Assembly: GCA_016933615.1 (NCBI GenBank)
Contig: JAFGAO010000243.1
Span: 1-34,781 of the forward strand
DNA length: 34,781 nt
Source: Acidobacteriota bacterium
GTDB taxonomy: Bacteria; Acidobacteriota; UBA6911
Direction of reading: 5' to 3'
The translations under genes were made by a program, and so were the position numbers. The notes under the pieces were generated by a model that did not search any database, was not told the DNA's origin, and saw only the letters and a program-made list of their open reading frames with translations. Below are positions 1 to 24,928 of this stretch, piece after piece (the first letter of the stretch is position 1; each line of letters opens with the position of its first letter).

Positions 1-3
1 CTA

Positions 4-41
4 AGGGCTCGCGCCAAAATGTAAACTTATTTTTGCGCGAA
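4..41. repeat. 38-bp hairpin repeat, copy 1
   Basis: This sequence is identical over 38 bases to the reverse complement of 34621-34658. It is also an imperfect palindrome: an arm reading GGGCTCGCGCCAAAAT pairs with ATTTTTGCGCGAATCCC around a loop of about 8 bases. It lies about 30 bases downstream of the stop codon of the minus-strand CoA ligase gene and in the same orientation relative to that gene as the other copy is to its own. The window begins almost exactly at the repeat, which is what an assembly break at a multicopy repeat looks like. I infer a REP-like dispersed element that may act as a terminator or mRNA 3' stabiliser. Function is not shown. Confidence 0.8.
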
Positions 42-70
42 TCCCACGAGAGAAGACGACAGAGGGGCAC

Positions 71-1450
71 TCATCTCGAGTCGACGATCATCTTCTTTGC
101 ACGGTCCGCGGTCTCGAGGGAGCCCATGGGGACCACGGCCACATGCGGTTCGTCCATGGTGCCGGCGTCTCTGCCCGCGCAAATGACCGGCGCCGAAAAG
201 AGCCTGCGGCGGATTCGGGCAAGGACACGGGTGGTATCGCGTGCGGTTTCTATTTCGAACATCAGCCGGTCCCTGCCTCCGTGCTTCATTATTCTTACCC
301 GGTAGTCGATTACATCGGGGACGGCGAAGAGCAGGTCGTCGAAAAGCGCGGGATAGATTTCCGCCCCGTCCGAAAGCCTCACGATCGATTCCAGCCGCTT
401 CCTGACCGCATCGAACCGGAGCAGGCTTACGGCGCCGCAGGGGCACGGATTCTCGATCAGGCGGGACAGGTCGTGCGTCCGGTACCGGATCAGGGGCATG
501 GCTTCCCGGGTCAAGGTGGTGAAAACAAGCTCCCCTTCCTCCCCGGGTTTTGAGCGCCGCCCTGTTGCGGGGTCGATTATTTCGAGAAGGAGATCGGCTT
601 CATTGAAATGGTATCCGTTCTGGGCGCTGCATTCGACAGCCACCCCGAGCCCCATTTCCGTCAGTCCGTAATGGGTATGGACCCTGCAGTTCCAGATGGA
701 TTCCAGTTCGCACCGTCTCGCCGCGGGCAGATATTCCCCGGCCAGGAAAAGGGCCTTCAATCCCATCGACTCGAGGTCCCGTAGGGCCTCGAGCTCTTTG
801 GTCATACGGTAAATCTGTCCGGCGTACCCGAATAATATCGCGCTGTGGGATTTTTCCAGGACAGCCAGCTGTTCTTCGGGGCTTCGCGCCGCACCCGAAA
901 CGACGGGCGAGGCTCCGAACTTGAGGATACCACGCCGCAGGAGGTCCGCCTGGCTGTAAGGTCGGCCGTCGAACAGAAGGATCTGAACCGTGTCGTTGCG
1001 GGCCGCAACCGTACCGATCCCGGCCGCCATGAAGTCTGTGATCCTTTCCAGATCCCACCGGGACCAGAAAATTTCCTTTTGCGGGCCGGTAGTACCCGAA
1101 GTGACGAATATGCACGGCCGTGCCACGGCGGACTGAGGGATGCATAAAAACCGGTAGGGGTGTTGAGCCAGGTCGCGGGGGTCGGTGAGAGGGAGTTTCA
1201 CCAGATCTTCATAGCCGGCAATGTCGGACGGTTTCATCCCCGCCCTGTCGAACCGCTCCCGGTAGAAGGCGCTTTTTTCATACGCGTACCGGAGCGTTCG
1301 CCGCAGGTTGAAGTCCCGGTAGCTTTCGACATCGGACCGGGTGAAGGAAGAAGCGCGCTCTTTGCCCGAGAAGCGGCGGAATTCGGCATCCGTCCTCAAA
1401 TTATCTTCAATCACGCCCTGGAGCCAGGATTGCAGATAGATCGCCGCCAC
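71..1450 (-). CDS. PaaK-like AMP-dependent CoA ligase (DVU_1553-like)
   Basis: This 459-aa cytoplasmic enzyme of the adenylate-forming superfamily resembles phenylacetate-CoA ligase (PaaK) and coenzyme F390 synthetase. Visible motifs are the P-loop SGTTG at residues 118-122, the adenine-binding HYGLTEMG at 260-267, and a YRTHDLSR hinge followed by the PaaK-type C-terminal domain. The family activates a carboxylate as acyl-AMP; the substrate here cannot be read from sequence. Translation begins at a GTG one base after the TGA of the upstream radical SAM gene (TGA-C-GTG), so the two are probably translationally coupled. From memory, a homologous ligase (DVU_1553 family) accompanies trsS genes in sulfate reducers and other anaerobes, so I infer that it acts with the radical SAM protein. 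It is the last gene of the operon inside the window. Confidence 0.85.
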   Translation of the reverse strand: MAAIYLQSWLQGVIEDNLRTDAEFRRFSGKERASSFTRSDVESYRDFNLRRTLRYAYEKSAFYRERFDRAGMKPSDIAGYEDLVKLPLTDPRDLAQHPYRFLCIPQSAVARPCIFVTSGTTGPQKEIFWSRWDLERITDFMAAGIGTVAARNDTVQILLFDGRPYSQADLLRRGILKFGASPVVSGAARSPEEQLAVLEKSHSAILFGYAGQIYRMTKELEALRDLESMGLKALFLAGEYLPAARRCELESIWNCRVHTHYGLTEMGLGVAVECSAQNGYHFNEADLLLEIIDPATGRRSKPGEEGELVFTTLTREAMPLIRYRTHDLSRLIENPCPCGAVSLLRFDAVRKRLESIVRLSDGAEIYPALFDDLLFAVPDVIDYRVRIMKHGGRDRLMFEIETARDTTRVLARIRRRLFSAPVICAGRDAGTMDEPHVAVVPMGSLETADRAKKMIVDSR

Positions 1451-1451
1451 G

Positions 1452-2831
1452 TCAATATTCTTTCCGGGCGGGATACAGCCGCCGGCCGCGGGTTCCGGTC
1501 ATGTAATAGGCGCAGAAAGGGACCCGCTTCCCCTCCGGCGTCACCACGTGGACGCAGCAGCGCTCGAGCCGCTCGAGATCGATGTTCCAAGCATCCTGGA
1601 ATGCCATGCCCGATATGGACAGGGAATGGCTCCGGATCCGTTCAAAAAGGTCGTCCTCGGGGGCGGGGCCGCTGCCCGCCCTGTTGCCGGGGAGGATGGG
1701 CATCGGACCCGGTTCCATGTATCTCCAGCGGCTTCGGACGTGATCGATCGAGCGCCGGGCATAGTCCTCGCTGCAGCACGGCCGGGATCTGCGCACCGAA
1801 TCAAAATGGGTCGTGGGTATCAGCCTGCCGTCTTTTCCAAGGACGGCGAGAGCGGAAAAGGAGCAGTGGGATTCTTCGCAGCCGGGCGGGATGAAATTCT
1901 CCACCTTCAATTCTCCCAGGGTCTGCTTTTCAATGGCGTCGAGGATATCGGGTATCAATAAGCGCGCTTCATTGCGGGGCTTGCCGGGGTACCTGCCGAG
2001 GTAGGTCATGGGTTGAAAATGCACCCCTTTCACCACCGGCACCCATTTCCGGGCAAAGCGGATGATCCGTCCTATATGATCGTCGTTGACCCCCTTGAGC
2101 AGGGTGGGAACGAGAATCACGCCGAGTTTCAACTCGGCGCAGCGCTCAATCGTTCTTTGTTTGGTCTCAAAAAGCCCGGCTCCGCGGATGCGTTTATAGA
2201 CGGAATCGTCGACGCCGTCGAACTGGAGAAATGCGACCGAAGCGCCGGCGTCGGCCAGGGCGCGCCCGAAGTCCGCGTCCTCGGCCAGGCGGATCCCGTT
2301 GGTATTGATCTGTAAATGGTCGAATCCCATTTTCCTGGACAGTGCCACCAATTCCGGCAGGTCGTCGCGCAGGGTCGGTTCGCCGCCGCTGAACTGAACC
2401 GTGCAGGGGCCGCCGGCATCCAGAAGGGACCGGAGCATGCGGGCGATCTCTTCTTTCTTCGGATCCTTGGCGGGAGCGCCCGGGGACGAGGCGAAGCACA
2501 CGGGACAGCGCAGATTGCATGTCTCCGTGGCCTCGATGACGGCGGTGCAGGTGCGCTGTTTGTGATCGGGGCGGAGGCCGCATCGCAACGGGTATCCGGG
2601 CGGCGGCGACGGTTCCTTTTCCCGGTTCCTCGGCACATTCTTATCCAAGGGCCTTTCCCATTCGGAATAGGATCTGGGTGCATTGTTCCACAAAAGCGCC
2701 TTGCCCAGGTAGCCGTGGGCGGGACAGCTTTTCTCCAGGTAGACGGAACCGTTTTCGGTGATTCGGCGGGCCGGAATGCGGCGCAGGCATTGCGGGCAGA
2801 GGCTTTCCGTCAGGTCAGGCGAATCCGGCAT
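1452..2831 (-). CDS. trsS: TrsS-like radical SAM protein
   Basis: This is a 459-aa radical SAM protein. The [4Fe-4S]/SAM motif is CNLRCPVC with cysteines at residues 105, 109 and 112, followed by a GGEPTLR SAM-binding segment. The N-terminus has a small cysteine cluster (CPQC at 12-15, then SCPAHG around 36-39). The C-terminus is also cysteine-rich (PCCSE, RCCVH, PFCAYY), suggesting auxiliary clusters or substrate-binding thiols. The overall pattern matches the proteins I know as TrsS, a family described as including selenoproteins. This ORF has no internal TGA, so it appears to be a cysteine version. It sits between the 61-aa CxxC gene (9-base gap) and the CoA ligase (1-base gap). The reaction is not established; a maturation or modification role is inferred. 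Confidence 0.85.
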   Translation of the reverse strand: MPDSPDLTESLCPQCLRRIPARRITENGSVYLEKSCPAHGYLGKALLWNNAPRSYSEWERPLDKNVPRNREKEPSPPPGYPLRCGLRPDHKQRTCTAVIEATETCNLRCPVCFASSPGAPAKDPKKEEIARMLRSLLDAGGPCTVQFSGGEPTLRDDLPELVALSRKMGFDHLQINTNGIRLAEDADFGRALADAGASVAFLQFDGVDDSVYKRIRGAGLFETKQRTIERCAELKLGVILVPTLLKGVNDDHIGRIIRFARKWVPVVKGVHFQPMTYLGRYPGKPRNEARLLIPDILDAIEKQTLGELKVENFIPPGCEESHCSFSALAVLGKDGRLIPTTHFDSVRRSRPCCSEDYARRSIDHVRSRWRYMEPGPMPILPGNRAGSGPAPEDDLFERIRSHSLSISGMAFQDAWNIDLERLERCCVHVVTPEGKRVPFCAYYMTGTRGRRLYPARKEY

Positions 2832-2840
2832 GTATGGATC

Positions 2841-3026
2841 CTATTTCCCGTAGATCATGTTTTCCGCTTCTTTCACCACGCTGACGACGATCTCCTCGGT
2901 GAGGTAGCTTTCGCCGCAGACCGGACAGCGGAGGCCGGGAAGCCTTTGAGAGAGCTGCATGTAGCTCAACTTGACGTCCGTTTCCAGCATTTTTACCTTG
3001 TCCTTGTAGCAGTACCAGTCGGCCAT
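2841..3026 (-). CDS. Small CxxC redox-like protein (DVU_1557-like)
   Basis: This is a 61-aa soluble protein with a zinc-ribbon-like CPVCGESYL knuckle near residue 35 and one further cysteine in the N-terminal WYCYKD segment. There is no signal peptide. It resembles the short DVU_1557 family redox proteins that I associate with trsS operons. Its start codon overlaps the stop of the Tat-signal gene as TAATG, and its stop lies nine bases before trsS, so all are clearly co-transcribed. With only one CxxC pair it could bind metal as a dimer, or use the cysteines for thiol redox or as a carrier. Function is inferred from context only. Confidence 0.8.
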   Translation of the reverse strand: MADWYCYKDKVKMLETDVKLSYMQLSQRLPGLRCPVCGESYLTEEIVVSVVKEAENMIYGK

Positions 3027-3427
3027 TACATTCCTTCCTCGAGCAGGAAACGGTGCGAATACGCGTCATGGATGCGGTAGCCGCCATCCACGGGCGAGTA
3101 TTCCGCATAGAAATAGACTTCATCCATGCGCAGTTTGGCCAGCAGGCGGTCGCTGTCCTGCCGGTACAGTTTTACCCCGCTTTTTTCCGCATGGCCGATC
3201 ACCTTGACAAGGTCGTCTTCCAGGATGTGACGGTCCACCATGAGACGGCGTACCTCGCCTGCAATGTCGAGCTTGAAAGGGGGAGTTTCCGGAGAAACGT
3301 CGGCAAGGACCAAAGGACTGGATCCGATGACGGCCATGGACCCGATGGCGAACTTCCTCCGGGAAATCCGGCCCTTGCCTCCGTCTTTATTGGGGCGGGC
3401 TTCTTCTCTCTTCTCTTTTCGGGGCAT
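3026..3427 (-). CDS. Tat-signal protein with 'HDAYSHR' domain, first gene of trs operon
   Basis: This is a 133-aa protein. The N-terminus is highly charged, then has a twin-arginine motif (ISRRKFAIG) and a short hydrophobic stretch ending near residue 43, so Tat export or membrane anchoring is likely. The mature part (EDDLVKVIGHAEKSG through YFYAEYSPVDGGYRIHDAYSHR) recalls a small domain I have seen at the end of FAD/Fe-S dicluster-binding subunits in aldehyde-oxidase-type operons. There it reads roughly as an AEKTG-KL segment followed by YWVEY and HNAYSHRM. That resemblance is from memory and unverified. A good Shine-Dalgarno AAGGAAG precedes the ATG. Being first in the operon and exported is odd, because the three partners look cytoplasmic. 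Confidence 0.75.
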   Translation of the reverse strand: MPRKEKREEARPNKDGGKGRISRRKFAIGSMAVIGSSPLVLADVSPETPPFKLDIAGEVRRLMVDRHILEDDLVKVIGHAEKSGVKLYRQDSDRLLAKLRMDEVYFYAEYSPVDGGYRIHDAYSHRFLLEEGM

Positions 3428-3469: not shown

Positions 3470-3498
3470 ATGCTAAAGTGAAAAAAGACCCGTGTCAA
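3470..3498 (-). promoter_or_regulatory. Candidate sigma70-type promoter of the trs operon
   Basis: Read on the minus strand there is a perfect -35 TTGACA (3493-3498), a 17-base spacer and a -10 TAGCAT (3470-3475, 4 of 6 matches). The predicted start of transcription falls about 30-35 bases upstream of the ATG at 3427. The element overlaps the only upstream GTG start of amrS (3478), which argues that amrS begins further downstream at 3556. Confidence 0.6.
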
Positions 3499-3555
3499 AA
3501 AAATGTTCGGGCTGTTGGCTTTCACGCCTTCAGCTTCAAGGCCTCGAAAAGGGAT

Positions 3556-4614
3556 ATGCTATCGGCGGCGGAAATAATCGAACGGCACTCGAAGCCGGGC
3601 GAGCTGTTTCAGAAGCTCGAGAAGAACCAGGTGCGCTGCCTCGCCTGCGGGCACCGCTGCAGGATACGCGACGGAAGGTCGGGCGCCTGCAAGGTGCGTT
3701 TCAACCGCGGGGGCGTGCTGCGGGTCCCGTTCGGATACGTGTCCGGCGTGCAGTGCGATCCTGTCGAGAAGAAACCCTTTTTCCATGTGCGTCCGGGTTC
3801 CGCGGCCTTGAGTTTCGGCATGCTCGGCTGCAATTTTCATTGCGGCTTCTGCCAGAACTGGATCACGTCCCAGGTTCTCAAGGATCCCAAAGCGGCGCCC
3901 TATCTGTCCCCGGCAACCCCGGGCGCATTGATCGAGGCCGCCGGCAGGGAAGGCGCCGGGATTATCGTCAGCACGTACAATGAACCCCTGGTGTCGGCCG
4001 AGTGGAGCGCCGCGGTTTTCCGGGAGGCGAAAGCCGCGGGATTGACGACCGCCTACGTGTCCAACGGATTTGCGTCCTCCGAGGCGCTGGAGTACCTCGG
4101 GCCGTGGGTGGATCTTTTCAAGGTTGATCTGAAATGTTTCAGCGATGCGAAGTACCGGCAGCTGGGCGGAAGGCTTGGGCCGGTCCTGGAAACGATCCGG
4201 AGCCTGCACAAAGCGGGCATATGGATGGAAATCGTCACGTTGCTGGTTCCCGGGTTCAACGATTCGGCGCGGGATTTGTCCGGGCTGGCAGGTTTCATCC
4301 GTTCGGTTTCTCCGGATATACCCTGGCACGTGACCGCCTTCCATAAAAATTACCGGATGACGGAGCCGCGCGATACGGCGCCCGACGATCTGGTGCGCGC
4401 CGCGGATATCGGAAGGAACAGCGGCCTGCACTATGTTTACGCCGGGAACCGTCCGGGAGATAGCGGCGATCTGGAAAACACGCGGTGCCCGAAATGCGGG
4501 GAACTGCTCGTCGAGCGGATCGGGTACCGCATTCTGAGCTGCAGACTTGAGCCCGGGGGACGATGCCCTCGCTGTAAACTGGCGATTCCGGGAAGATGGG
4601 GATCGTTGAAATAA
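3556..4614 (+). CDS. amrS: AmmeMemoRadiSam system radical SAM enzyme
   Basis: This is a radical SAM protein of about 352 aa. An N-terminal CLACGHRC...GACKVR cysteine segment is followed by the cluster motif CNFHCGFC (C92, C96, C99, counted from the ATG at 3556). It ends in a C-terminal zinc ribbon with CPKCG and CPRC pairs. This layout is typical of AmrS, the radical SAM member of the AMMECR1/Memo/radical-SAM gene set, often misnamed pyruvate formate-lyase activating enzyme. The AMMECR1 and Memo partners are not in this window. The reading frame is open back to a GTG at 3478, but that codon lies in the trs promoter and lacks a ribosome site. The ATG at 3556 has AAGGG close upstream and leaves the usual family N-terminus. 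The biochemical role is unresolved. Confidence 0.88.
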   Translation: MLSAAEIIERHSKPGELFQKLEKNQVRCLACGHRCRIRDGRSGACKVRFNRGGVLRVPFGYVSGVQCDPVEKKPFFHVRPGSAALSFGMLGCNFHCGFCQNWITSQVLKDPKAAPYLSPATPGALIEAAGREGAGIIVSTYNEPLVSAEWSAAVFREAKAAGLTTAYVSNGFASSEALEYLGPWVDLFKVDLKCFSDAKYRQLGGRLGPVLETIRSLHKAGIWMEIVTLLVPGFNDSARDLSGLAGFIRSVSPDIPWHVTAFHKNYRMTEPRDTAPDDLVRAADIGRNSGLHYVYAGNRPGDSGDLENTRCPKCGELLVERIGYRILSCRLEPGGRCPRCKLAIPGRWGSLK

Positions 4615-4670
4615 GTTTTTGCATAAACGGATTTTGGTCGGGGTACACGACGCGTCAAAGGAGCCCTTCA

Positions 4671-6647
4671 ATGAAAAAGAGATATTCATTACCGCTTGCG
4701 TTGCTGCTGATGGGATTGGCCGTGAGCGCGGTGCTGTCCGGCGCCGATACCGCGGAGTCGGTTGCGGTCAGGATCGATGCCTTAAAAACGGCGGAGCCGA
4801 TCTCCCCCTATGTTTACGGCCAGTTCATAGAACATCTGGGCCGCTGCATTTACGGTGGGCTCTGGGCCGAGATGCTCGAAGACCGGAAATTTTACTACCC
4901 CGTAACCGGAGAAGCCCCGGCATGGGAGATGTTCACTCCCGGCCCGCGCTCCTGGGACGGGGAGGGGCATCCCTACGAACTGCTCGTACGGTCTCCATGG
5001 ATGGTTATCGGAGATGCATCCGCCGTAACCATGCAGAAGCAAAATTCCTACGTCGGGGAGCACACGCCGGAAGTGCGGCTTCCGGGGAACGGGCGGCGGG
5101 CGGGAATACAGCAGCAACGCCTGGGGCTGGTTTCCGGGAAACGCTACACGGGCAGGATCGCACTGTCCGGGGATCCGGCGGCGGCGCCGATCGAGGTGAG
5201 CCTCGCCTGGGGAGGCGGGGCCGGGGACAGGGCTACGGTGACCGTCGAAAGACTGCGGTCCGGCTACGTCACGGTGCCTCTCGCGTTTACCTCGGGAGGC
5301 ACGACCGACAACGGGCGACTGGAGATCGCGGGCCGCGGGGAGGGGAGCTTTCTGGTAGGCACGGTCTCCCTGATGCCTGCGGACAATGTCCGGGGGTGGC
5401 GCAGCGACACCGTGGCGCTTTTGAAGGAATTGAATGCGCCCGTGTACCGCTGGCCCGGCGGCAACTTCGTCAGCGGTTATGAATGGAAGGAAGGGATCGG
5501 CGATCCGGACAGGAGGCCCCCGAGAAAAAATCCGGCCTGGAAGGGCGTGGAGCATAACGATGTCGGGATCCACGAGTTCATGGACCTTTGCCGCGAAATC
5601 GGCGCGGAACCTTTTATCGCGGTCAATACCGGCTTGGGGGGCGCCGCGGGCGCCGCGGAGGAGGTCGAGTATGTCAACGGCGCCGTGGACGCTCCCATGG
5701 GCGCGCTGCGCGCGAAAAACGGGCATCCCAATCCCTTCGGGGCCCGGTGGTGGGCGATCGGCAATGAAATGTTCGGCGACTGGCAGCTCGGGCACATGCC
5801 CCTCACGGAGTACCTGAAAAAGCATCGCGGGGTTGTGGATGCCATGCGCGCGGTGGATCCCGCGATTCAGTCCATCGCCGTCGGCCAGGCAGGCGAGTGG
5901 AGCCGGGAGATGCTGGCCAACTGCGCCGATCATATGGAGCTTCTGAGCGAACACCTCTACTGGCAGGACCGGGACGATGTCGAATCCCACGTGGCCCAGA
6001 TTCCCCAGGGAATCCGCCGCGTCGCCGACGCGCATCGGAAATACAGAGAGGAATTGCCCTCCCTCGCCGGCAAGGACATCCGCATCGCCCTGGACGAATG
6101 GAACTACTGGTACGGCGGGAATGAATACGGGGAGCTTGGGGTGCGCTACTTTCTCCAGGACGCCCTCGGCATCGCCGCCGGGCTTCACGAAATGTTCCGG
6201 CAGAGCGATCTTTTTTTCATGGCCAATTACGCCCAGACCGTCAACGTCATCGGGGCCATAAAAACGACGAAAACGGCGGCCGAGTTCGAGCCGACGGGGC
6301 TCGTCCTGAAGCTTTACAGGCGGCGTTTCGGGAAAATACCGGTCCGGGTCTCGGGCGATCTCGGGTCTTTGGATATCGCCGCGGCATGGACGCAAGACAG
6401 GAACTACCTCACGGTGGCTGTTGTAAATCCCGCTTCGGAGCCCCGGTCCCTGGTTCTTGAAACGGCGGGGGTGAAGATCGGGTCCAAAGCCGGAATGTGG
6501 AAAATCAGCGGTAAAAACCGGTGGGCCCATAATCTTCCCGGCCGGAAACGGGGGGTTGATATCGAGGCGGAGACACTCGAAATAAAAGATAAACGCATCG
6601 AGGTATCACCGTTGAGCGTAACCCTTTATTCGTTCCCGGTCCTATAG
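4671..6647 (+). CDS. Secreted GH51 alpha-L-arabinofuranosidase
   Basis: This 658-aa enzyme has an N-terminal signal peptide (KKRYSLPLALLLMG, cleavage probably after about residue 25). The GH51 hallmark segments are all present: an YVYGQFIEHLGRCIYGGLWAEM start, the acid/base in AIGNEMFG (E366), and the nucleophile in LDEWNYW (E476). A beta-sandwich follows at the C-terminus. The family removes terminal arabinofuranose from arabinan or arabinoxylan with retention. The start is fixed by AAAGGAG at 4657-4663; the frame is open further upstream, but that extension would precede the signal peptide. The gene follows amrS by 56 bases. Most bacterial GH51 enzymes are intracellular, so the signal peptide is worth noting. 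Together with the GH3 enzyme at 12023 it suggests use of plant hemicellulose. Confidence 0.92.
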   Translation: MKKRYSLPLALLLMGLAVSAVLSGADTAESVAVRIDALKTAEPISPYVYGQFIEHLGRCIYGGLWAEMLEDRKFYYPVTGEAPAWEMFTPGPRSWDGEGHPYELLVRSPWMVIGDASAVTMQKQNSYVGEHTPEVRLPGNGRRAGIQQQRLGLVSGKRYTGRIALSGDPAAAPIEVSLAWGGGAGDRATVTVERLRSGYVTVPLAFTSGGTTDNGRLEIAGRGEGSFLVGTVSLMPADNVRGWRSDTVALLKELNAPVYRWPGGNFVSGYEWKEGIGDPDRRPPRKNPAWKGVEHNDVGIHEFMDLCREIGAEPFIAVNTGLGGAAGAAEEVEYVNGAVDAPMGALRAKNGHPNPFGARWWAIGNEMFGDWQLGHMPLTEYLKKHRGVVDAMRAVDPAIQSIAVGQAGEWSREMLANCADHMELLSEHLYWQDRDDVESHVAQIPQGIRRVADAHRKYREELPSLAGKDIRIALDEWNYWYGGNEYGELGVRYFLQDALGIAAGLHEMFRQSDLFFMANYAQTVNVIGAIKTTKTAAEFEPTGLVLKLYRRRFGKIPVRVSGDLGSLDIAAAWTQDRNYLTVAVVNPASEPRSLVLETAGVKIGSKAGMWKISGKNRWAHNLPGRKRGVDIEAETLEIKDKRIEVSPLSVTLYSFPVL

Positions 6648-12022: not shown

Positions 12023-14587
12023 ATGTCGACGATACTGTGGCTCATGATCGCACTGCTGGGTTTCATCCTGGGAGCGGCCCTTTCCTCGGCCCAGTCTCCC
12101 GGAGGCGCGCAACCGGGGGATCCGGAAGACCGGGTCGAATCTATTCTGGACCGGATGAGCCTGGAGGAGAAAATAGATTATATCGGCGGAGCGGACCGCT
12201 TCTACATTCGTTCCGTCGACCGGCTGGGAGTGCCCCGGTTGAAAATGGCGGACGGCCCCCTCGGTGTCCGCAACTACGGACCGGCAACCGCCATGGCCGG
12301 CGGCATTGCGCTGGCCGCTTCATGGGACCCCGCGCTGGCCGAACGCGTCGGCATCGAAATAGGCCGGGACGCGCGCGCCAGGGGCGTTCATTTCCTGCTG
12401 GGCCCCGGCGTCAATATCTACCGGGCGCCGATGAACGGAAGGAACTTCGAGTATCTGGGGGAGGACCCGCTTCTGGCGTCGAGAATTGCGGTTCCCTACA
12501 TCCGGGGCGTGCAGAAGCAGGGCGTATGCGCGACGGTCAAACACTTCGCGGGAAACAATTCGGAGTTCGACCGGCGCAAAACCGATGCGGTCATCGACGA
12601 GCGAACACTGCGGGAAATATATCTTCCGGTTTTCGAAGCCGCCGTCAGAGAAGCGGATGTGGGAGCCGTCATGACGGCCTACAACCGGACCAACGGGGTA
12701 TACATGTCGCAAAACGGGTACCTGAACAATGAAATAGTCAAAAAGGAATGGGGTTTTGAAGGCGTCCTCATGTCGGACTGGACCTCGACCTTCGACGGCA
12801 TTGCGGCCGCCGTCGGGGGGCTGGACCTGGAGATGCCCTCGGGCGAGTTTATGAACCGCCGCAACCTCCTGCCCGCACTCGAACAGCAAAGGATCGCCAT
12901 GGGAACCATCGACGACAAGGTCCGGCGCATTCTTCGCACGGCCGTGCGTTTCGGCTGGCTGGACCGCGAGCAGACGGACCGGACCGTCCCGCGCTACAAC
13001 CCGGCCGGCCGGGAGGTCGCGCTCGATGCCGCCCGGGCGTCCGTGGTTCTGCTCAAGAACGAAAACTCGATTCTTCCGCTCGACCCGGAGACAATCAAAA
13101 CAATCGCGGTCCTGGGGCCGAACGCGCATCCCGCCCCGGTGGCGGGGGGAGGAAGCGCGCGCGTCACCCCGTTCGGCGCGGTCAGCATCCTCGAAGGGCT
13201 GGCGCAACTCCTGGAGGGCGGGGCATCGGTGCACTACCATCCGGGCATTCCGTCACCGGGGGACATTGCCGATGCGACGCGTTTTTATACCGCTCCGTCC
13301 GGCGGATCGCAGGGCATGCTGCTGGAGCTGTTCGAGGGCATGGACCTGTCGGGCGAACCTGACCGCAAATGCATCGTGGCGGGAGTCGGTTCCCCCGGGT
13401 TCACGGGCGGGATTCTCGAGCCGTTCACCTCCGCCCGCTGGACGGGGTATTTCACGGCGCCCGGCGAAGGGAACTACGAGGTGTTCGTGCAGATACCGGG
13501 AGAAAGGATCGGCTACCGGCTCCATGTCAACGACCGGCCTGTGCTCGACGCATGGGACTTTTCGAAAGCCCTGCTGGATACGGAAACCGCAGGGTTCGTG
13601 GGCGGCGGCAATAAAGTGGTTCTGGAGCTCGTGCGCAGGGGCGGCGGTTACGCGGGCGGAAAACTGCGGTTGGGCATCGTGCAGACCGGGAGCCTGGTGG
13701 ATCCGGACGCTCTGGCACTGGCGCGGCAATCCGATGCGGTCGTCGTCGCCGCCGGATTCAATTCCGAAATCGAGAGCGAAAGCGGGGACAGGGAATTCAG
13801 GCTCCCGCCCGGACAGGACATGCTGATCCGGGAGGTTGCGGCGGTCAACCCGAAAACGATTGTGGCGATCACCTCGGGCGGCGGCGTGGATATGAGGGAG
13901 TGGCTCGGCACTGTGCCGGCCGTGATGGCAACCTGGTATCCGGGCCAGGAGGGGGGCAGGGCGCTTGCTGAAATTCTCATGGGACGCACGAACCCGTCCG
14001 GCCGCCTGCCCGTGACTTTCGAAAACAGCCCCGAGGATAATCCGGCGTTTGAAAATTACTACCCGGATCCTGGCGCGGACAGGGTCGCATACCGGGAAGG
14101 CGTGTTTGTCGGGTACCGGGGATACGAACGGAGAAACGCAAAGCCGCTCTTCCCGTTCGGGCACGGGCTTTCCTATACGACGTTCGAGTACAGGGATCTG
14201 GAAATAACGACGGCGGCTCGGGAAGCGGTCGGAAAGACGGCTCCAGGCGCGCAGTTTGAAGTCTCGTTCGAAATCGTGAACACGGGCAATATGCAAGGTT
14301 CCGAAGTGGCCCAGGTTTATGTCGGCTCCGCCGGAAGCGATGTAAAGCGGCCGCCGAAGGAACTGAAGGGTTTCGTGAAAGTCGCTCTCGATCCCGGCGA
14401 AAGAAAAAGGGTTTCGGTAAAGCTGGACAGGCGGGCCTTCTGTTACTACGACGCCGCGGAAAGAAGATGGAAAATTGAAACCGGCGAACGGAAAATACTT
14501 GTCGGGCGCTCCTCGGAACAGATCGAGCTCGAGGGAAAATTGAGGCTTGCCGAAATAGCGGAAAGCAGCGGAGCGGATTCCCGCTAG
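12023..14587 (+). CDS. Secreted GH3 beta-glycosidase with PA14 insert
   Basis: This is an 854-aa protein. After a signal peptide (STILWLMIALLGFILG, cleaved near residue 23) comes the GH3 N-terminal barrel with the nucleophile aspartate in MSDWTSTFDG (D252). The alpha/beta domain is interrupted at about 430-560 by a PA14-like lectin insert (ARWTGYFTAPGEGNYEVFVQ). The second half of the domain holds the acid/base segment ESESGDREF, and a C-terminal fibronectin-III-like domain contains SEVAQVYVG and RPPKELKGF. This architecture matches PA14-containing beta-glucosidases of plant-degrading bacteria; specificity (glucose, xylose or other) is not readable. The ATG is preceded by GAGGAG at good spacing. 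It is divergent from qor; its promoter probably lies in the AT-rich stretch 11935-11975. Confidence 0.93.
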   Translation: MSTILWLMIALLGFILGAALSSAQSPGGAQPGDPEDRVESILDRMSLEEKIDYIGGADRFYIRSVDRLGVPRLKMADGPLGVRNYGPATAMAGGIALAASWDPALAERVGIEIGRDARARGVHFLLGPGVNIYRAPMNGRNFEYLGEDPLLASRIAVPYIRGVQKQGVCATVKHFAGNNSEFDRRKTDAVIDERTLREIYLPVFEAAVREADVGAVMTAYNRTNGVYMSQNGYLNNEIVKKEWGFEGVLMSDWTSTFDGIAAAVGGLDLEMPSGEFMNRRNLLPALEQQRIAMGTIDDKVRRILRTAVRFGWLDREQTDRTVPRYNPAGREVALDAARASVVLLKNENSILPLDPETIKTIAVLGPNAHPAPVAGGGSARVTPFGAVSILEGLAQLLEGGASVHYHPGIPSPGDIADATRFYTAPSGGSQGMLLELFEGMDLSGEPDRKCIVAGVGSPGFTGGILEPFTSARWTGYFTAPGEGNYEVFVQIPGERIGYRLHVNDRPVLDAWDFSKALLDTETAGFVGGGNKVVLELVRRGGGYAGGKLRLGIVQTGSLVDPDALALARQSDAVVVAAGFNSEIESESGDREFRLPPGQDMLIREVAAVNPKTIVAITSGGGVDMREWLGTVPAVMATWYPGQEGGRALAEILMGRTNPSGRLPVTFENSPEDNPAFENYYPDPGADRVAYREGVFVGYRGYERRNAKPLFPFGHGLSYTTFEYRDLEITTAAREAVGKTAPGAQFEVSFEIVNTGNMQGSEVAQVYVGSAGSDVKRPPKELKGFVKVALDPGERKRVSVKLDRRAFCYYDAAERRWKIETGERKILVGRSSEQIELEGKLRLAEIAESSGADSR

Positions 14588-16109: not shown

Positions 16110-17876
16110 TCATTCCCCGGGGAAAAGGGCGGGCCACCGTTCATCGACGCGGGCCACTGTTTCCGGCAGCGGTTCCACCGGGGGCGGGTACCAGGGTTTG
16201 AACCGGCAATCGATCACGACCGGGGCCGACAATAGCGCGTGAAAGCGCTCCAGGCGGCAGTCTTTCGCGTGAATGTCGGCTGCCGGCTCGAACCTTGTGA
16301 ATACCGTCCAAAGGAAGGACGCGTCATCCCGGGTGCAGTCCCGTGCATTGTCCACAAGCACCACAATGCGGAATGGCCGCACGGCCTCCTCCTGCAGCAA
16401 TTGACCCGCGGCGTCGTCGTTTTGCCGCCACTTGGGGCCTTCCACCACGAGCAGGCCGGGCATGAAGACCCTCTGGGCCCGGAATGCTTCATTTTTCAGC
16501 TCGGCGACAGGATTTTCCTGAAGTCTGAAGCGGCGGTCTCCGAGGCCCATGAGGACGGCTTTGCTTCCCTCGTTCACGGTCCCGCTCGTGTAATCGAGAG
16601 TGTCCTGGGAAACGGGCGAAAATACATGCAGATCGGTGCTGAAATCGGCGCGCTCCAGAATGTGGCGCATTAGGGCGCGGAAATCCTGCAGTTGCACTGG
16701 CGTGTCGGTGACCATCAGGAACTTGGTCAACGACAGCTGTCCCTCTCCCAGGATTCTCAATGCCGCCGCGAACGCTTCCCTGGGGTAGCGTTCCCGGACC
16801 ACCGCGGCCGCCAGGGGATGCACACCGGCATCGTCGTAGGCCCACACCGCCCGGACTCCGTTCATTACCAGCGGGTATACGGGAGAGAACAGTTCCTGCA
16901 GGTATTCGCAGATATAGTGGTCCTCCTGCCGGGGGCGTCCGACAACGGTGGCGGGGAAAAGCGCGTCTTTTCGGTGAAAAATCTTTTCCGTTACGAATAC
17001 GGGGTACGGGTGCGCCAGGGAGTAGTATCCGTAGTGATCCCCGAATGGCCCTTCATTACGCCTTGTATGGGGAGGGACATGGCCCACGAGCGCGAATTCC
17101 GCTTCGGAGACTACCGGGAGAGAACTGATTTCCCCGTTCTTTATCAGCGATAATTTCTTTCCCTGCAGGAGGGAGGCCAGGACGACTTCCGGCACATTTT
17201 CCGGAAGCGGCGCGATCGCAGAAAGGATGAGAGCCGGGGAGCCGCCTAAAAAGACATTCGCCGCCAGAGGCTTCCCCAGTTTTTCCGCTTCGTGGTAGTG
17301 AAATCCCATGCCGCGCTGGATCTGAAAATGCATGCCGGCAACCGAATCCTCGTAGATTTGAACGCGGTACATGCCGATATTGGAATTTCCGGTCACGGGA
17401 TGCTCCGTGTAGACGAGAGGCAGTGTAAGAAAGGCGCCGCCGTCGCCCGGCCAGCTCTGAATCTGCGGAAGCGATTTCAGCCGCACCGGGTGCATGGCGC
17501 ATTGGAGGACCGGCCCCGAGCGGCGGATCCGGGTTCCCAGCCGCACAAGCTGTTTGGCGAGGTCCCGAAACTCCCATAGCCTGGAAAGGGAAGGCGCCAT
17601 CAGGCGTTCGGCGGCTTCCGTAACGCGTGCAATGAATCGGGACGGCTCTTCGCCAAAGGCCAGATCGATGCGCCGGCGGGTCCCGAACAGGTTCGAAACA
17701 ACGGGGAATTTTGTGCCCAGGACCCGGCGGAACAGAAGCGCCGGCCCCTGGCGCCCGACAACCCTGCGCTGGATCTCGGCCAGTTCGAGACGGGGGTCCA
17801 CGGCTTCATCGATAACGTGGAGTTCTCCCTCCCGCTTCAGACATTCGATATAGCTTCCGAGGTTGAGGTGTCGCAT
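16110..17876 (-). CDS. UbiD-family decarboxylase
   Basis: This 588-aa protein belongs to the prenyl-FMN-dependent UbiD family. Recognisable segments are the N-terminal KREGELHVIDEAVDPRLELAEI, the prFMN-contact NSNIGMYRVQ, and NEGPFGDHYGYYS. SPVSQDTLDYTSGTVNEGSKAVLMGLGDR near the end is also diagnostic. The length fits the long UbiD subgroup that includes menaquinone (futalosine pathway) decarboxylases, but no other mqn gene is near, so the substrate is open. One oddity: the segment usually reading E-x-V-x-E-G reads EAEFALVGHV, so the second acidic residue is valine. The gene lies 73 bases downstream of metXW on the same strand; a TATACT at 17899-17904 may give it its own promoter. Confidence 0.88.
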   Translation of the reverse strand: MRHLNLGSYIECLKREGELHVIDEAVDPRLELAEIQRRVVGRQGPALLFRRVLGTKFPVVSNLFGTRRRIDLAFGEEPSRFIARVTEAAERLMAPSLSRLWEFRDLAKQLVRLGTRIRRSGPVLQCAMHPVRLKSLPQIQSWPGDGGAFLTLPLVYTEHPVTGNSNIGMYRVQIYEDSVAGMHFQIQRGMGFHYHEAEKLGKPLAANVFLGGSPALILSAIAPLPENVPEVVLASLLQGKKLSLIKNGEISSLPVVSEAEFALVGHVPPHTRRNEGPFGDHYGYYSLAHPYPVFVTEKIFHRKDALFPATVVGRPRQEDHYICEYLQELFSPVYPLVMNGVRAVWAYDDAGVHPLAAAVVRERYPREAFAAALRILGEGQLSLTKFLMVTDTPVQLQDFRALMRHILERADFSTDLHVFSPVSQDTLDYTSGTVNEGSKAVLMGLGDRRFRLQENPVAELKNEAFRAQRVFMPGLLVVEGPKWRQNDDAAGQLLQEEAVRPFRIVVLVDNARDCTRDDASFLWTVFTRFEPAADIHAKDCRLERFHALLSAPVVIDCRFKPWYPPPVEPLPETVARVDERWPALFPGE

Positions 17877-17949: not shown

Positions 17950-19764
17950 TTACCGGCTGATGACGAAGATCGCCATGTCCGCCATAAGGTTGGGATCTTC
18001 CGTGACGATGCGTCCGTCTTCGGTATCCAGGGCGATGCATTCGTGGACCCGGATGTCGCGCCGGCGGCAGAAATCGTAGAAATCCTCGATGGAAAAAAAA
18101 CGGATATTGGGCGAGTTGTACCATTCGTAGCGTAGAAGCTCGTTCGAACGGGGCGACCGGCCTTCCTCGTAAAGCATCCGGCGCAGCTTGTGGTAGGCGA
18201 AATTGGGGAAACTGACGATGGATTTGCTTCCGACCCGCAGCATCTCTTTTATGAGGTGCTCCACGTCCTTTACCGCCTGAAGCGTATGTGAGAGTACAAT
18301 GCAATCAAACTGCCCATCTGAAAATGGATCGAGTCCCGAGTTCAGATCGGCCTGCACCACGTTCAGGCCCCTTTGCAGGCAGTAAAGGACGTCTTCTTCG
18401 TTCAGTTCAAGTCCCATCAGTTTTGTGTTGCCGTTGGCCAGCAGTTTTACCAGCAGGCTGCCCCGGCCGCAGCCGAGATCGAGGACGCTCGCGTGCGGAT
18501 CCACAAGCCTGGCGATCTCTTCGTTGTCCATGCGGGGGCGATGGATGGAGCCGAAAATACTGGCTGGAGCGTGGACGTAAAAATCGTCTTCCTCAAGACA
18601 CTCCGGAATCCCGTTCTGCATGGTGTCCAGGAATGCGCGCATCAGTTCCCCGTAAACCGGCAGGTCGTCCTCGAGCAGGAAGGCATCGTGCCCGCAGCTG
18701 CTGACGACATTGCAGTAGCTGACGGACTTGCCGAGTCCCAGAAGCGTGTCCGCGAGCTCCCGGGACTGTTCCGGAGGGAAAAGCCAGTCGCTGGAAAAGC
18801 TGAGGATAAGCCAGCGGCATGAGGACCGGCTCAAGTTCGCGGCCAGCACGTCATTTGTGTCGCCGAGGTTGAAAAGGTCCATGGCCATCGAAAGCTTGAT
18901 GTAGCTGTTGGCGTCGAACCGCTCCACGAATTTACCTCCCTGGTGGGCCAGGTAGGAGCCGACACTGAATATTTTCTCAAATTCCGTATCCAGCTCTCTC
19001 GGCTGCAGACGGTTGAACTCGAACTTCTCCCGCATCGCCTCTGCAGAGAGGTAAGTTATGTGACCCAGCATGCGCGCCAGAGCCAGCCCCACCGCGGGCA
19101 CAGTCCCCTTGTCTATGTAGTCGCCCTCTTCGAAGTTGGGATCGCGCCGGATCGCGTTGCGCCCGACGATGTCGAATGCCAGCGCCTGCGTCGTCAGCCT
19201 GGCCGACGTGGCGACGGCAACGGCACCTGCGACCCTTCCTGGATGCCGCGTCGCCCAGGTCAGTACCTGCTGGCCTCCCATGGAACCTCCGACCACCGCC
19301 AGCAGCCGGGATATGCCGAGATGCTCGATCAGCCTTTTTTGCGTCTCCACTATATCCAGGGTGGTAACAGTGGGGAAGTTGTCCCCGTAGCGCCGGCCTG
19401 TTTCGGGATCGATGCTGTTCGGGCCGGTGGTGCCGCGGCACCCGCCGAGAATGTTGGGGCATATTACATAATAACTGTCGGTGTCGATGGCTTTTCCGGG
19501 GCCGACGACGATGTCCCACCATCCGGGATCATCCTCCTCGTCGTGGGCGGCCGCGTGCGAGTCGCCGCTCAGGGCATGGCAGATCAGAATGGCGTTGTCC
19601 CGGGCCGCGTTGAGCGTGCCGTACGTTTCGTAAGCGACGGTCACCCGGGGCAGGCTCCCTCCCAGCTCCAGCGAGAGCGGCGCTTCGAAGTCCGCTGTTT
19701 TCACGTGCTTCAGGGGGCGTGACGAACGGGCGCTGTCGCTGCTTTCAAAGATTTTCGTAGTCAT
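17950..19764 (-). CDS. metXW: Homoserine O-acetyltransferase / MetW fusion
   Basis: This 604-aa fusion carries the alpha/beta-hydrolase MetX at residues 1 to about 385. Its motifs are NILGGCRGTTGPNS, the nucleophile elbow GGSMGG (S161), SSDWLFP (D327) and CGHDAF (H359), giving a complete S-D-H triad. Residues about 405-604 are MetW, a class I SAM-methyltransferase-like domain with VLDLGCGRGSLL (427-438). MetX activates homoserine to O-acetylhomoserine, the substrate of MetY encoded 22 bases upstream. MetW is a frequent neighbour of MetX thought to support its activity, but its own reaction is uncertain. The reading frame runs through the junction without stop or ambiguity. O-succinyl rather than O-acetyl transfer cannot be excluded from sequence alone. 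Confidence 0.93.
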   Translation of the reverse strand: MTTKIFESSDSARSSRPLKHVKTADFEAPLSLELGGSLPRVTVAYETYGTLNAARDNAILICHALSGDSHAAAHDEEDDPGWWDIVVGPGKAIDTDSYYVICPNILGGCRGTTGPNSIDPETGRRYGDNFPTVTTLDIVETQKRLIEHLGISRLLAVVGGSMGGQQVLTWATRHPGRVAGAVAVATSARLTTQALAFDIVGRNAIRRDPNFEEGDYIDKGTVPAVGLALARMLGHITYLSAEAMREKFEFNRLQPRELDTEFEKIFSVGSYLAHQGGKFVERFDANSYIKLSMAMDLFNLGDTNDVLAANLSRSSCRWLILSFSSDWLFPPEQSRELADTLLGLGKSVSYCNVVSSCGHDAFLLEDDLPVYGELMRAFLDTMQNGIPECLEEDDFYVHAPASIFGSIHRPRMDNEEIARLVDPHASVLDLGCGRGSLLVKLLANGNTKLMGLELNEEDVLYCLQRGLNVVQADLNSGLDPFSDGQFDCIVLSHTLQAVKDVEHLIKEMLRVGSKSIVSFPNFAYHKLRRMLYEEGRSPRSNELLRYEWYNSPNIRFFSIEDFYDFCRRRDIRVHECIALDTEDGRIVTEDPNLMADMAIFVISR

Positions 19765-23748: not shown

Positions 23749-24928
23749 GGAAGTGGACCGTGGGAAAATCAGGCGCGATCGACTCCCGGACCGCCGGCTT
23801 CAGGCAGGACTGGACGAGTGCGGTGACATCCAGTCCGCTTTCGGCTTCCTCGACCTGCTGCAGCCTGGCCATGGTTTCGGGATGGCGCGGAACGAAAAGA
23901 GAGCAACAGTCCTGATCCGCCTGGATGCTTATGTCATAAGTTTCTATTTTCCTGGCAATCTCGATGATTTCCTCTTTGTCGGATCCGATCAGGGGGCGGA
24001 AAATCGGCATCGCCGAGACGCTGGATATGGTCTGAATATTTTCGAGAGTCTGGCTGGCCACCTGTCCCAGGCTGTCGCCGGTCACAAGAGCCTTGGCTTT
24101 TTCCCTAGCGGCGATCACCTGGGCGATGCGGAGCATGAACCTGCGATAGAGCACCACCCGCAGGGGCGCAGGCGCGTAAGCCACAATTTCCTTCTGTACG
24201 TCCGCAAAGGGAACCAGGTACAGGCGGGACTCCAGCTGATAACGGGAAAGGATCCCGAGAATGCGGCGCACCTTGTCCTGGGATTCCGCGCTGGTGTGGG
24301 GGAAACTGTGAAAATGGATGAAAAGAACGCGGCAGCCTCGCCGCATCATCCGATAGGCCGCGACAGGGGAGTCAATCCCCCCGGACAGCAGGCAAAGGAC
24401 TTTTCCACCCGTACCTTGAGGGAGCCCCCCCGCCGCCGGAATTTTATTCAAATAGAGAAAGGCTTTGTCGTCGACGATTTCCACAAAAAATGTTCTGTCG
24501 GGATTCGAAAGGCGGACGTCGGCCATTGACTTTTGTTGCACAAAAGCCCCCAGCCGTTCGTTCAGCTGTTGAGAGTTCAGCGGAAAGTTTTTGGTCCCCC
24601 GCCGTGAATCCATCTTGAAAGATTTAAAATCCCCCAGGGCAATCAGAAATTCCAGCCCCCTCTCGATGGCTTCGATTCCGGCTTCGACTTCCCATGCCGA
24701 AACAAAATTGGCGATGCCGAAGACCATGGCGAGCCGCCGCTCGATCGCGTCTGCTGGGGAGTCCGGGTCCAATTCCACGACCAGCCGGCCTGAAATTTTC
24801 CGTACCCTTCGATATTTCAAGCCTTTAAGAGTCGAGGTGACGTGATTCTGGAGGCAGGCCTCAAACCAGCCGCGGTTATTCCCCTTAAGATTGATTTCGT
24901 GGTAGTGGATGATCAAGGAGCGTTTCAC
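23741..24928 (-). CDS. thiI: tRNA 4-thiouridine synthetase ThiI without rhodanese domain
   Basis: This 395-aa protein has an N-terminal ferredoxin-like/THUMP region (to about residue 165). The adenylating PP-loop SGGIDSP is at 182-188. The conserved QDCCSLFVPRHPET segment lies near the C-terminus. ThiI adenylates uridine-8 of tRNA and installs sulfur as 4-thiouridine; in some bacteria it also feeds thiamine thiazole synthesis. The rhodanese domain of the roughly 480-aa E. coli protein is absent, so sulfur must reach it by another path, as in many non-enterobacterial homologs. Translation starts at a GTG with GAGG eight bases upstream. It is first of the three-gene thiI-TPR-macro cluster. Confidence 0.94.
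   Translation of the reverse strand: MKRSLIIHYHEINLKGNNRGWFEACLQNHVTSTLKGLKYRRVRKISGRLVVELDPDSPADAIERRLAMVFGIANFVSAWEVEAGIEAIERGLEFLIALGDFKSFKMDSRRGTKNFPLNSQQLNERLGAFVQQKSMADVRLSNPDRTFFVEIVDDKAFLYLNKIPAAGGLPQGTGGKVLCLLSGGIDSPVAAYRMMRRGCRVLFIHFHSFPHTSAESQDKVRRILGILSRYQLESRLYLVPFADVQKEIVAYAPAPLRVVLYRRFMLRIAQVIAAREKAKALVTGDSLGQVASQTLENIQTISSVSAMPIFRPLIGSDKEEIIEIARKIETYDISIQADQDCCSLFVPRHPETMARLQQVEEAESGLDVTALVQSCLKPAVRESIAPDFPTVHFHE

Follow-up and report, generated by a model that had tools for sequence, protein, structure and literature searches.

Results

The window analysed here is the entire contig JAFGAO010000243.1 (G000:C220:1-34781; 34,781 nucleotides) of an 81.9%-complete acidobacterial assembly (G000; 3.62 Mb in 298 contigs). 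At one end it carries a compact trs-type operon for a twin-arginine protein that bears a domain termed TCD, a 61-residue zinc ribbon, the radical S-adenosylmethionine (SAM) protein TrsS and a PaaK-like ligase. The reading that we tentatively prefer is that the operon may be a trs core independent of the molybdenum (Mo) aldehyde oxidoreductase (AOR), in which the ligase and TrsS would build a group on the last lysine of the ribbon, and TCD and the ribbon would be exported. A mechanism centred on this lysine is favoured because the ribbon always ends in lysine, TrsS and TCD are strictly linked, the ligase is intact, and disulphide-oxidoreductase genes occur in the neighbourhood of relatives (a CCG domain, present in NF045663, and a dihydrolipoyl dehydrogenase cluster at three loci). 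The combination of an acyl-adenylating enzyme with a small carrier had been put forward in a preliminary description of this DNA, and on the terminal lysine and the intact ligase we favour it too.

The four minus-strand open reading frames (ORFs) span 3427-71. As described earlier, they form one operon, joined by TAATG (the ribbon ATG overlapping the stop of the TCD-protein gene), by 9 bases between the ribbon gene and trsS, and by TGA-C-GTG between trsS and the ligase gene, behind a single promoter-like site (Table 1). The scores of TrsS and the ligase, both over the NCBIfam cut-offs, bear out its assignment to the trs type. All four are genuine genes, closely spaced and subject to purifying selection. 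The nearest TrsS relatives come from metagenome-assembled genomes of Acidobacteriota, the best being that of locus L030 (70% identical); between the window and L030 the ratio of nonsynonymous to synonymous substitution rates (dN/dS) is ~0.24 for TrsS, 0.15 for the ligase, 0.17 for the TCD protein and 0.09 for the ribbon, values that are rough, as they come from this one pair with dS of 0.8-1.2. In the six acidobacterial loci, the window included, where both genes were read, the gap between the TCD and ribbon genes is -4 to 2 bases, and that between the ribbon gene and trsS in acidobacterial loci, again with the window, is -14 to 9 bases. The recurrence of this gene order in acidobacterial relatives exceeds chance, and the conserved neighbourhood expected earlier was thus found.

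Table 1 Features of the trs operon in the window, listed in the direction of transcription.
Feature	Position	Strand	Basis or remark
Promoter-like site TTGACA-17-TAGCAT (10/12 consensus)	3470..3498	-	one site only; shuffles give 0.1 per region
Twin-arginine protein, 133 aa, with orphan TCD domain	3026..3427	-	NF045663 C-terminal part, 71 bits
Twin-arginine motif SRRKF, residues 22-26	3350..3364	-	SRRxF in 9/9 acidobacterial TCD proteins
TCD domain, residues ~51-130	~3038-3277	-	within twin-arginine protein
DVU_1557-type zinc ribbon, 61 aa (C6xxD9...C34xxC37)	2841..3026	-	DUF7479 and DVU_1557 profiles
Codon of invariant C-terminal K61	2844..2846	-	comparison of the ribbon cluster
TrsS radical SAM protein, 459 aa	1452..2831	-	NF045646, 546 bits (cut-off 490)
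Y80xxxC84xxR87 in place of CxxxCxxC (N-terminal auxiliary cluster motif)	2571..2594	-	80 other TrsS keep CxxxCxxC
Radical SAM motif C105xxxC109xxC112	2496..2519	-	C in 81/81 TrsS
Cys318 codon	1878..1880	-	selenocysteine TGA here in five acidobacterial relatives
DVU_1553-family PaaK-like AMP-forming ligase, 459 aa, GTG start	71..1450	-	NF045666, 339 bits (cut-off 300)
Contig end	1..70		downstream portion of locus unassembled

Relatives were gathered by a pattern-based scan, sensitive only to close relatives, of one genome per species (84,980 species), which gave 154 confirmed TrsS relatives. The best 80 of these (L017-L096) were analysed as loci, and their ORFs were clustered together with those of the window, each main cluster being named after one member; short ORFs were missed by the clustering, so that ribbon counts are low. 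All ten TrsS-positive genomes of the window's genus have a window-type locus, with a ribbon gene of the window type read in each. The same four genes were found in eight of the ten (the ligase being cut by a contig end in one); one further contig stops earlier, and G005 lacks the ligase at this place. In the window itself the ligase stop lies 70 bases from the contig edge and the locus may continue beyond it; genes missing downstream are therefore no evidence, and the earlier statement that only the core is present, which the window alone does not allow to be judged, draws its support from the genus.

The zinc ribbon and its terminal lysine

Lysine is the last residue in all 53 members of the ribbon cluster, the window included, and in all 16 of a genus set that overlaps with it. 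It stands 24 residues past the last CxxC in 52 of the 53 ribbons and 23 residues past it in the other one. The last residue varies in the other protein clusters, the most uniform of which is AOR, with lysine in 23 of 49. A comparable example is LysW, a small zinc protein whose substrate is borne by the final residue.

The window ribbon passes the Pfam family DUF7479 (45 bits, cut-off 27) and stays below the DVU_1557 cut-off (33 bits vs 60). It had been described as a CxxC protein of 61 residues; C34xxC37 is indeed present, in what is a zinc ribbon, whereas the first motif is CxxD, a replacement found in 7 of the 53 ribbons, those of the window and its kin. The predicted model (mean predicted local distance difference test score, pLDDT, 84) is nearest to the N-terminal zinc domain of MqsA (Foldseek ranks 1-4 and 6; probability 0.94-0.99; E 0.04-0.24). 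The YgiT finger TIGR03831 is over its cut-off in the window ribbon (23.5 vs 20.2), and the match to MqsA TIGR03830 reaches 15 bits of the 61.8 required. Among 43 ribbon members, profile matches at E <= 1 were to ECs_2282 in 20, MqsA in 18, YgiT in 15 and LysW/ArgW in 6; a search of PDB sequences with the ribbon profile returned mostly generic zinc fingers.

The TCD domain and its link to TrsS

Residues 46-130 of the twin-arginine protein correspond to the C-terminal domain of NF045663 (674-758 of 759), a pyridine-nucleotide/dicluster protein. The twin-arginine protein thus carries the last 85 residues of NF045663 in free form; this RelE/DUF4258-like domain, free or fused, is here termed TCD. 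The protein had been listed as a Tat-signal protein; the twin-arginine motif is confirmed, and the description is corrected by the addition of this domain. None of the seven other stand-alone TCDs has the SRRxF motif common to the nine acidobacterial proteins. D72, Y110 and H125 are invariant in 42 TCD sequences, and the model is of high confidence from residue 51 on, with block pLDDT of 91-97 across 51-120. Its best PDB fold neighbours in Foldseek are YoeB, RelE and HigB proteins, none with E <0.07; DUF4258 is matched by 6 of 30 TCD members, and the TCD profile against PDB sequences gave at best E 0.32. Taken with the ribbon matches, the models suggest, weakly, that TCD and the ribbon may have descended from an MqsR/MqsA-like pair.

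The co-occurrence of TrsS and TCD is almost perfect. A profile found TCD at 67 of the 80 TrsS loci, many of the other 13 being short contigs, and elsewhere in the genome for 9 of these 13. Among 60 relatives TrsS was over cut-off in ten, all in the window's genus, and TCD in exactly the same ten and in 0 of the 50 others. These ten genomes hold 17 TCD copies, 10 of the window type and 7 in open frames of at least 753 aa that adjoin AOR. The comparison was extended to 247 genomes of the order holding L062 (a Desulfovibrio) and D. gigas, taken as Desulfovibrionales. Here TrsS was accepted up to E 1e-110, which gave 156 genomes, 153 of them over cut-off; AOR was searched with the D. gigas sequence and accepted up to E 1e-150. 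Both TrsS and TCD were found in 154 genomes, TrsS only in 2, TCD only in 4 and neither in 87, so that the check proposed in the preliminary description, co-occurrence across genomes, came out positive for this pair with 6 discordant genomes. For TrsS and AOR the counts were 150 both, 6 TrsS only, 10 AOR only and 81 neither; three genomes whose AOR match was weaker (G137, G305, G327) would have been scored as having both but were excluded.

The ligase and TrsS

The ligase retains 36 of 36 near-invariant positions, including K452. No lipoyl-type domain and no LplA/LipB or LipA/LipS family was among the matches of the four operon proteins, which for TrsS were the best 25 of 38 NCBIfam families.

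The best PDB relative of TrsS is the tetraether synthase GDGT-MAS (7tol/7tom, 300 bits; main blocks residues 8-316 and 398-443), and its second-best NCBIfam match is Tes NF045702 (334 bits, under the cut-off of 450). According to the available part of its description, GDGT-MAS contains three [4Fe-4S] clusters and a rubredoxin iron, its N-cluster is held by C73, C77, C80 and a histidine, and a substrate carbon becomes bonded to a cluster sulphur during catalysis (PMC9433317). The rubredoxin-type cysteines C12, C15 and C36 are kept in 81 of 81 TrsS, with H39 read in the window sequence, and C323, C425 and C440 of the window could by position serve a C-terminal auxiliary cluster. Where the N-terminal cluster motif has three cysteines, the window, alone among 81 TrsS, keeps one and has tyrosine and arginine in the other two places.

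An in-frame TGA aligns with Cys318, five residues before C323, in trsS of L017, L018, L019, L021 and L022, all of the same genus; one in-frame TGA occurs in six trsS genes of the genus. Absence of the selenocysteine (Sec) machinery was considered as the cause of Cys318 and ruled out, since SelB is over cut-off (383 bits) in the window's genome although its TrsS has Cys318.

As observations apart, the window's genome also encodes a Tes over cut-off on C65 (L002; 570 bits) and a longer Tes-like protein below cut-off on C83 (L003; 288 bits), so that this acidobacterium may possess tetraether or membrane-spanning lipids. Two tandem TrsS paralogues occur in L050, L041, L045, L065, L069 and L084. 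There is no AOR cluster member at any of these six loci; five have DUF5714, and some have 2-hydroxyacyl-CoA dehydratase-like subunits, a BadF-type ATPase, or dihydrolipoyl dehydrogenase or lipoate-ligase-like genes.

TrsS branches and the aldehyde oxidoreductase

The trs families occur, judging by record titles, in Acidobacteriota, Desulfovibrio, Chloroflexota, gut Clostridia and archaea. The full cassette comprises genes for a MogA-like protein, AOR (NF045668), NF045663, ribbon, TrsM, C-GCAxxG-C-C protein, TrsS, ligase, XdhC-like protein, MocA/HD nucleoside triphosphate (NTP) transferase and histidine phosphatase. Its NCBIfam models include TrsS NF045646, DVU_1553 NF045666, DVU_1556 (TrsM) NF045667, DVU_1555 NF045669, DVU_1557 NF045645, XdhC-like NF045664 and DVU_1551 NF045665. 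TrsS is reportedly described by Haft and Tolstoy in 2025. It is named in a review table (PMC13188914), and in the accessible portions of the literature the locus tags DVU_1551 to DVU_1559 (DVU_1552 aside) are represented by DVU_1559 and DVU_1558, in tables only (PMC10920352, PMC3114432).

In a FastTree phylogeny 18 loci, the window among them, separated from the 63 others and a second TrsS of G003 (support 0.992). A quick maximum-likelihood tree without bootstrap, rooted on three proteins over the Tes cut-off (570-619 bits vs 450), likewise grouped 64 AOR-branch rows without the window (Shimodaira-Hasegawa-like approximate likelihood ratio test, SH-aLRT, 98); the non-AOR rows possibly form a basal grade and not a clade. 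AOR lies in the fetched flanks of 46 of the 63 AOR-branch loci, often with XdhC, MocA-like NTP transferase and MogA-like genes. The only member of the AOR cluster in the unlinked set, beside L017 of genome G009, is XdhA-like (96 bits to NF045668) and was not counted as AOR.

The two sets also differ in gene content. In the unlinked set against the AOR branch, the ligase was found at 14/18 vs 58/63 loci, the ribbon at 9/18 vs 44/63, a TrsM-like gene at 5/18 vs 57/63, the C-GCAxxG-C-C protein at 0/18 vs 58/63 and NF045663 at 1/18 vs 52/63; conversely, DUF5714 was found at 5/18 vs 0/63, dihydrolipoyl dehydrogenase at 3/18 vs 0/63 and a lipoate-ligase-like protein (277 bits of 280) at 3/18 vs 0/63. 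No NTP transferase or XdhC-like gene was found at any of the 18 unlinked loci either. At least one of the five TrsM-like genes, that adjoining the ligase in L017, proved to be an arsenite methyltransferase (NF008823, 358 bits vs 263; TrsM 101 of 155), with a gene of the same cluster in L022; at L030, the next sizeable same-strand gene past the ligase encodes an unrelated methyltransferase and was also rejected as TrsM. Of 17 unlinked loci, a count that leaves out the window with its free TCD, 12 have a free TCD and in 5 none was found; in the AOR branch, TCD is fused to a long oxidoreductase at 51 of 63 loci, free at 4 and not found at 8.

The window's genome, 82% complete, was searched for three of the missing members. 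The trsM gene that the preliminary description proposed to look for elsewhere did not turn up (best 61 bits vs the NF045667 cut-off of 155), no full NF045663 protein was over cut-off, the C-terminal domain alone being found, and the best match to the AOR model reached 352 bits of 1100 (12 of 26 candidates scored). With 12 candidates per genome scored, AOR over cut-off was likewise not found in G001 (93% complete), G004 (96%) and G008 (93%). Of the 60 relatives six have AOR over cut-off, all TrsS-positive members of the genus, and their second locus holds AOR and an NF045663-like gene, in some cases with ribbon, C-GCAxxG-C-C protein, ligase and a cysteine desulfurase-like gene (BLAST labels). 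In G003 this second locus (L138, G003:C153) includes a further, divergent TrsS and is flanked by two AOR-like genes; the window-type locus is present in this genome as well. In G005, G006, G007 and G009 the sole TrsS over cut-off is the window-type one and the fetched AOR locus has none, so that service in trans to AOR is possible. Thirty genomes were searched whole, of which 15 have AOR over cut-off: 12 of 17 from the AOR branch and 1 of 9 unlinked, both groups lacking AOR at the locus, and 2 of 4 with AOR at the locus.

With 1374 bits to 1sij/1vlb, the linked AOR falls into the MOP family of D. gigas. G182 was recognised as the genome of this species by a sequence identical over 412 residues, and its mop run reads MogA, AOR, NF045663, ribbon, TrsM, C-GCAxxG-C-C, TrsS, ligase, XdhC and histidine phosphatase, the ligase and C-GCAxxG-C-C gene having been found by tblastn; a separate NTP transferase was not seen in this run. 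The accessible part of the work on this enzyme reports, at 1.28 A, molybdopterin cytosine dinucleotide (MCD) with well-defined pterin rings, and an oxo ligand in place of sulfido in Desulfovibrio AORs (PMC10223205). Since the cofactor is plain MCD despite the trs cassette, a permanent change of the Mo cofactor by trs is unlikely. Modification of the Mo pterin was rejected as a function for this reason, and also because the pterin methylase activity once ascribed to MJ0619 could, in the part of the report available, not be corroborated by its authors (PMC9433317).

Other genes in the window

Divergent to the trs operon, at 3478-4614 on the plus strand, lies a radical SAM gene of the AmmeMemoRadiSam system (TIGR04337, 280 bits), whose listed GTG probably lies upstream of the real start; the same cluster adjoins the trs operon in L030 and L019. 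Beyond it are alpha-L-arabinofuranosidase-like and family 3 glycoside hydrolases (4596-6647 and 12023-14587), which hint at plant polysaccharide use, a UbiD-type decarboxylase (16110-17876), an alpha/beta-hydrolase fused to MetW (17950-19764) and ThiI (23741-24928).

Discussion

From these results, a mechanism may be proposed in which the ligase would adenylate a carboxylic acid and attach it to the side chain (or the end) of the ribbon's C-terminal lysine. TrsS, with its tetraether-synthase layout, would then carry out radical chemistry at an unactivated carbon of the protein-bound group, as may be expected from its resemblance to GDGT-MAS with its bond between substrate carbon and cluster sulphur. 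A C-terminal auxiliary cluster beside Cys/Sec318 could accept the carbon radical, which would give a sulphur-bearing or carbon-linked redox arm. The ribbon would bind TCD as the zinc domain of MqsA binds MqsR, and in Acidobacteriota the folded TCD-ribbon complex would leave via the twin-arginine translocation (Tat) pathway, the ribbon riding along. In AOR-linked relatives TCD is fused to an electron-transfer protein of the NAD(P)H/Hdr-like kind, and there electrons would move through the arm to AOR or away from it.

Several observations weigh against this proposal. The window TrsS is without two ligands of the N-terminal cluster, and the window has no lipoyl-type domain. PaaK-like enzymes normally yield CoA thioesters, the G005 locus (L141) has another gene in place of the ligase, and the lipoate genes are confined to a few, partly related gut bacteria. 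The fold matches of the predicted models are weak (E 0.04 or worse), and ECs_2282, an unrelated zinc ribbon, matches more ribbons than YgiT or MqsA does. Binding alone might account for the conservation of the terminal lysine, and that the ribbon is exported is an assumption, since its sequence has no signal of its own. Finally, no TCD was found in 4 of the 13 genomes without it at the TrsS locus, and 2 of the 247 have TrsS without TCD.

A serious alternative, though in our view an unlikely one, is that the operon matures a Mo hydroxylase in trans, be it a D. gigas-type AOR or another member of the xanthine dehydrogenase family, for example by activating its cofactor or apoprotein. The tie to Mo hydroxylases made in the preliminary description does hold for the family at large, as seen from the TrsS-AOR counts in the 247 genomes, the AOR genes near 46 of 63 AOR-branch loci and in 12 of 17 other genomes, and the restriction of AOR in the 60 relatives to TrsS-positive genus members. 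The four genomes in which a window-type TrsS is the only one and stands apart from AOR speak for action in trans, and other Mo hydroxylases are present in the window's genome, where they account for the best score of 352 bits to the AOR model. For the window the tie does not hold in the same way: its TrsS lies outside the AOR clade and no AOR was found among the 12 of 26 candidates scored in its 82%-complete genome. With 12 candidates scored in each, 4 of 10 TrsS-positive genus members, the window's genome among them, show no AOR over cut-off, three of the four being at least 93% complete; nor do 8 of 9 further unlinked genomes, and the D. gigas AOR, its gene inside a trs cassette, has an ordinary MCD with oxo for sulfido in what is available of that report (PMC10223205).

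It is improbable that the role of TrsS is to produce or change a membrane lipid or a free small molecule by radical C-C coupling, with the ligase supplying an acyl-CoA and the ribbon acting as redox partner. Its kinship with Tes and GDGT-MAS and the PaaK-like nature of the ligase would fit; however, TrsS is under the Tes cut-off, the genome has a true Tes on C65, the stretch between the two aligned blocks is 82 residues as against 117 in GDGT-MAS, and the near-perfect TCD link and the terminal lysine would be left unexplained. We give as little credit to the idea that TrsS is losing its function in this one genome, or that the two missing cysteines are assembly errors in an otherwise usual operon. 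Only two of 68 near-invariant TrsS columns are broken in the window, both in the same three-cysteine motif (chance ~0.001), and each changed codon is one transition from a cysteine codon, as either would predict; yet all other near-invariant positions of TrsS and of the ligase are kept, and the dN/dS values, rough as they are, indicate constraint on all four genes. It is very improbable that the first two genes function as an MqsR/MqsA-like toxin-antitoxin pair and merely travel with trsS: the DUF4258, YgiT and fold matches and the order toxin then antitoxin, as in MqsR/MqsA, agree with it, but the acidobacterial TCDs carry a twin-arginine motif, most TCDs of the AOR branch are fused to a long oxidoreductase, a ribbon of 61 residues is too small for a DNA-binding domain, and TCD accompanies TrsS across genomes more strictly than a passenger would.

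The lysine-centred mechanism that we prefer matters in that the trs families are curated yet unexplained, and the locus points at the side chain of the last lysine in a 61-residue protein. It also separates the parts that are possibly essential (TCD, ribbon, TrsS and ligase) from the genes of molybdenum enzymes. If the lysine is modified, it would bear a new protein-bound cofactor, which would explain why AORs so often travel with an enzyme resembling tetraether synthase. One may go further, with a good deal less confidence, and speculate that trs is another swinging-arm system beside lipoyl and biotinyl. In it, a PaaK-like enzyme would place an acid on the invariant C-terminal lysine of a ribbon of 60-70 residues and a Tes-like radical SAM (seleno)enzyme would turn it into a new redox group with sulphur or selenium; the toxin-antitoxin-derived ribbon and its RelE-fold partner would form a redox carrier, exported by Tat to the periplasm in Acidobacteriota.

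Comparison with known systems

Compared with the NCBIfam trs cassette (DVU_1551 to DVU_1557), the window has TrsS and a ligase over cut-off, a DVU_1557-type ribbon and the C-terminal domain of NF045663 in equal relative order. As assembled, however, it lacks the AOR, TrsM, C-GCAxxG-C-C, NTP transferase and XdhC genes, its TCD is free and has a twin-arginine motif, the ribbon has CxxD for the first CxxC, and its TrsS falls outside the AOR-linked clade. The D. gigas AOR (MOP) is the client gene of that clade and itself lies inside a trs cassette, but no counterpart was found in the 82%-complete genome of the window. With Tes/GDGT-MAS (MJ0619) the window TrsS shares the rubredoxin-type C-x2-C-x20-C-x2-H, the radical SAM motif and candidate cysteines of a C-terminal cluster; it differs in two of the three N-cluster cysteines (Y80, C84, R87), in a score below the Tes cut-off, in the shorter stretch between the blocks and in Cys/Sec at 318.

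Weak similarity of fold and profile relates TCD and the ribbon to the MqsR/MqsA and DUF4258/YgiT pairs, from which the trs pair differs by having no helix-turn-helix, a terminal lysine, a twin-arginine motif and, in relatives, fusion to an oxidoreductase. In lipoate assembly, a lysine of a protein is the target of ligases and radical SAM proteins, as described in the available parts of two reports (PMC10332631, PMC9585515). The sHdr variant (sLpl(AB), LipS1/LipS2, LbpA) is like the proposed trs mechanism in logic only, with an acid-activating ligase, a radical SAM protein, a small protein with a critical lysine and an Hdr-like oxidoreductase, while the trs ligase, carrier and radical SAM protein come from other families. 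Lastly, the TCD protein of the window shares with Tat substrates a twin-arginine motif, SRRKF from residue 22.

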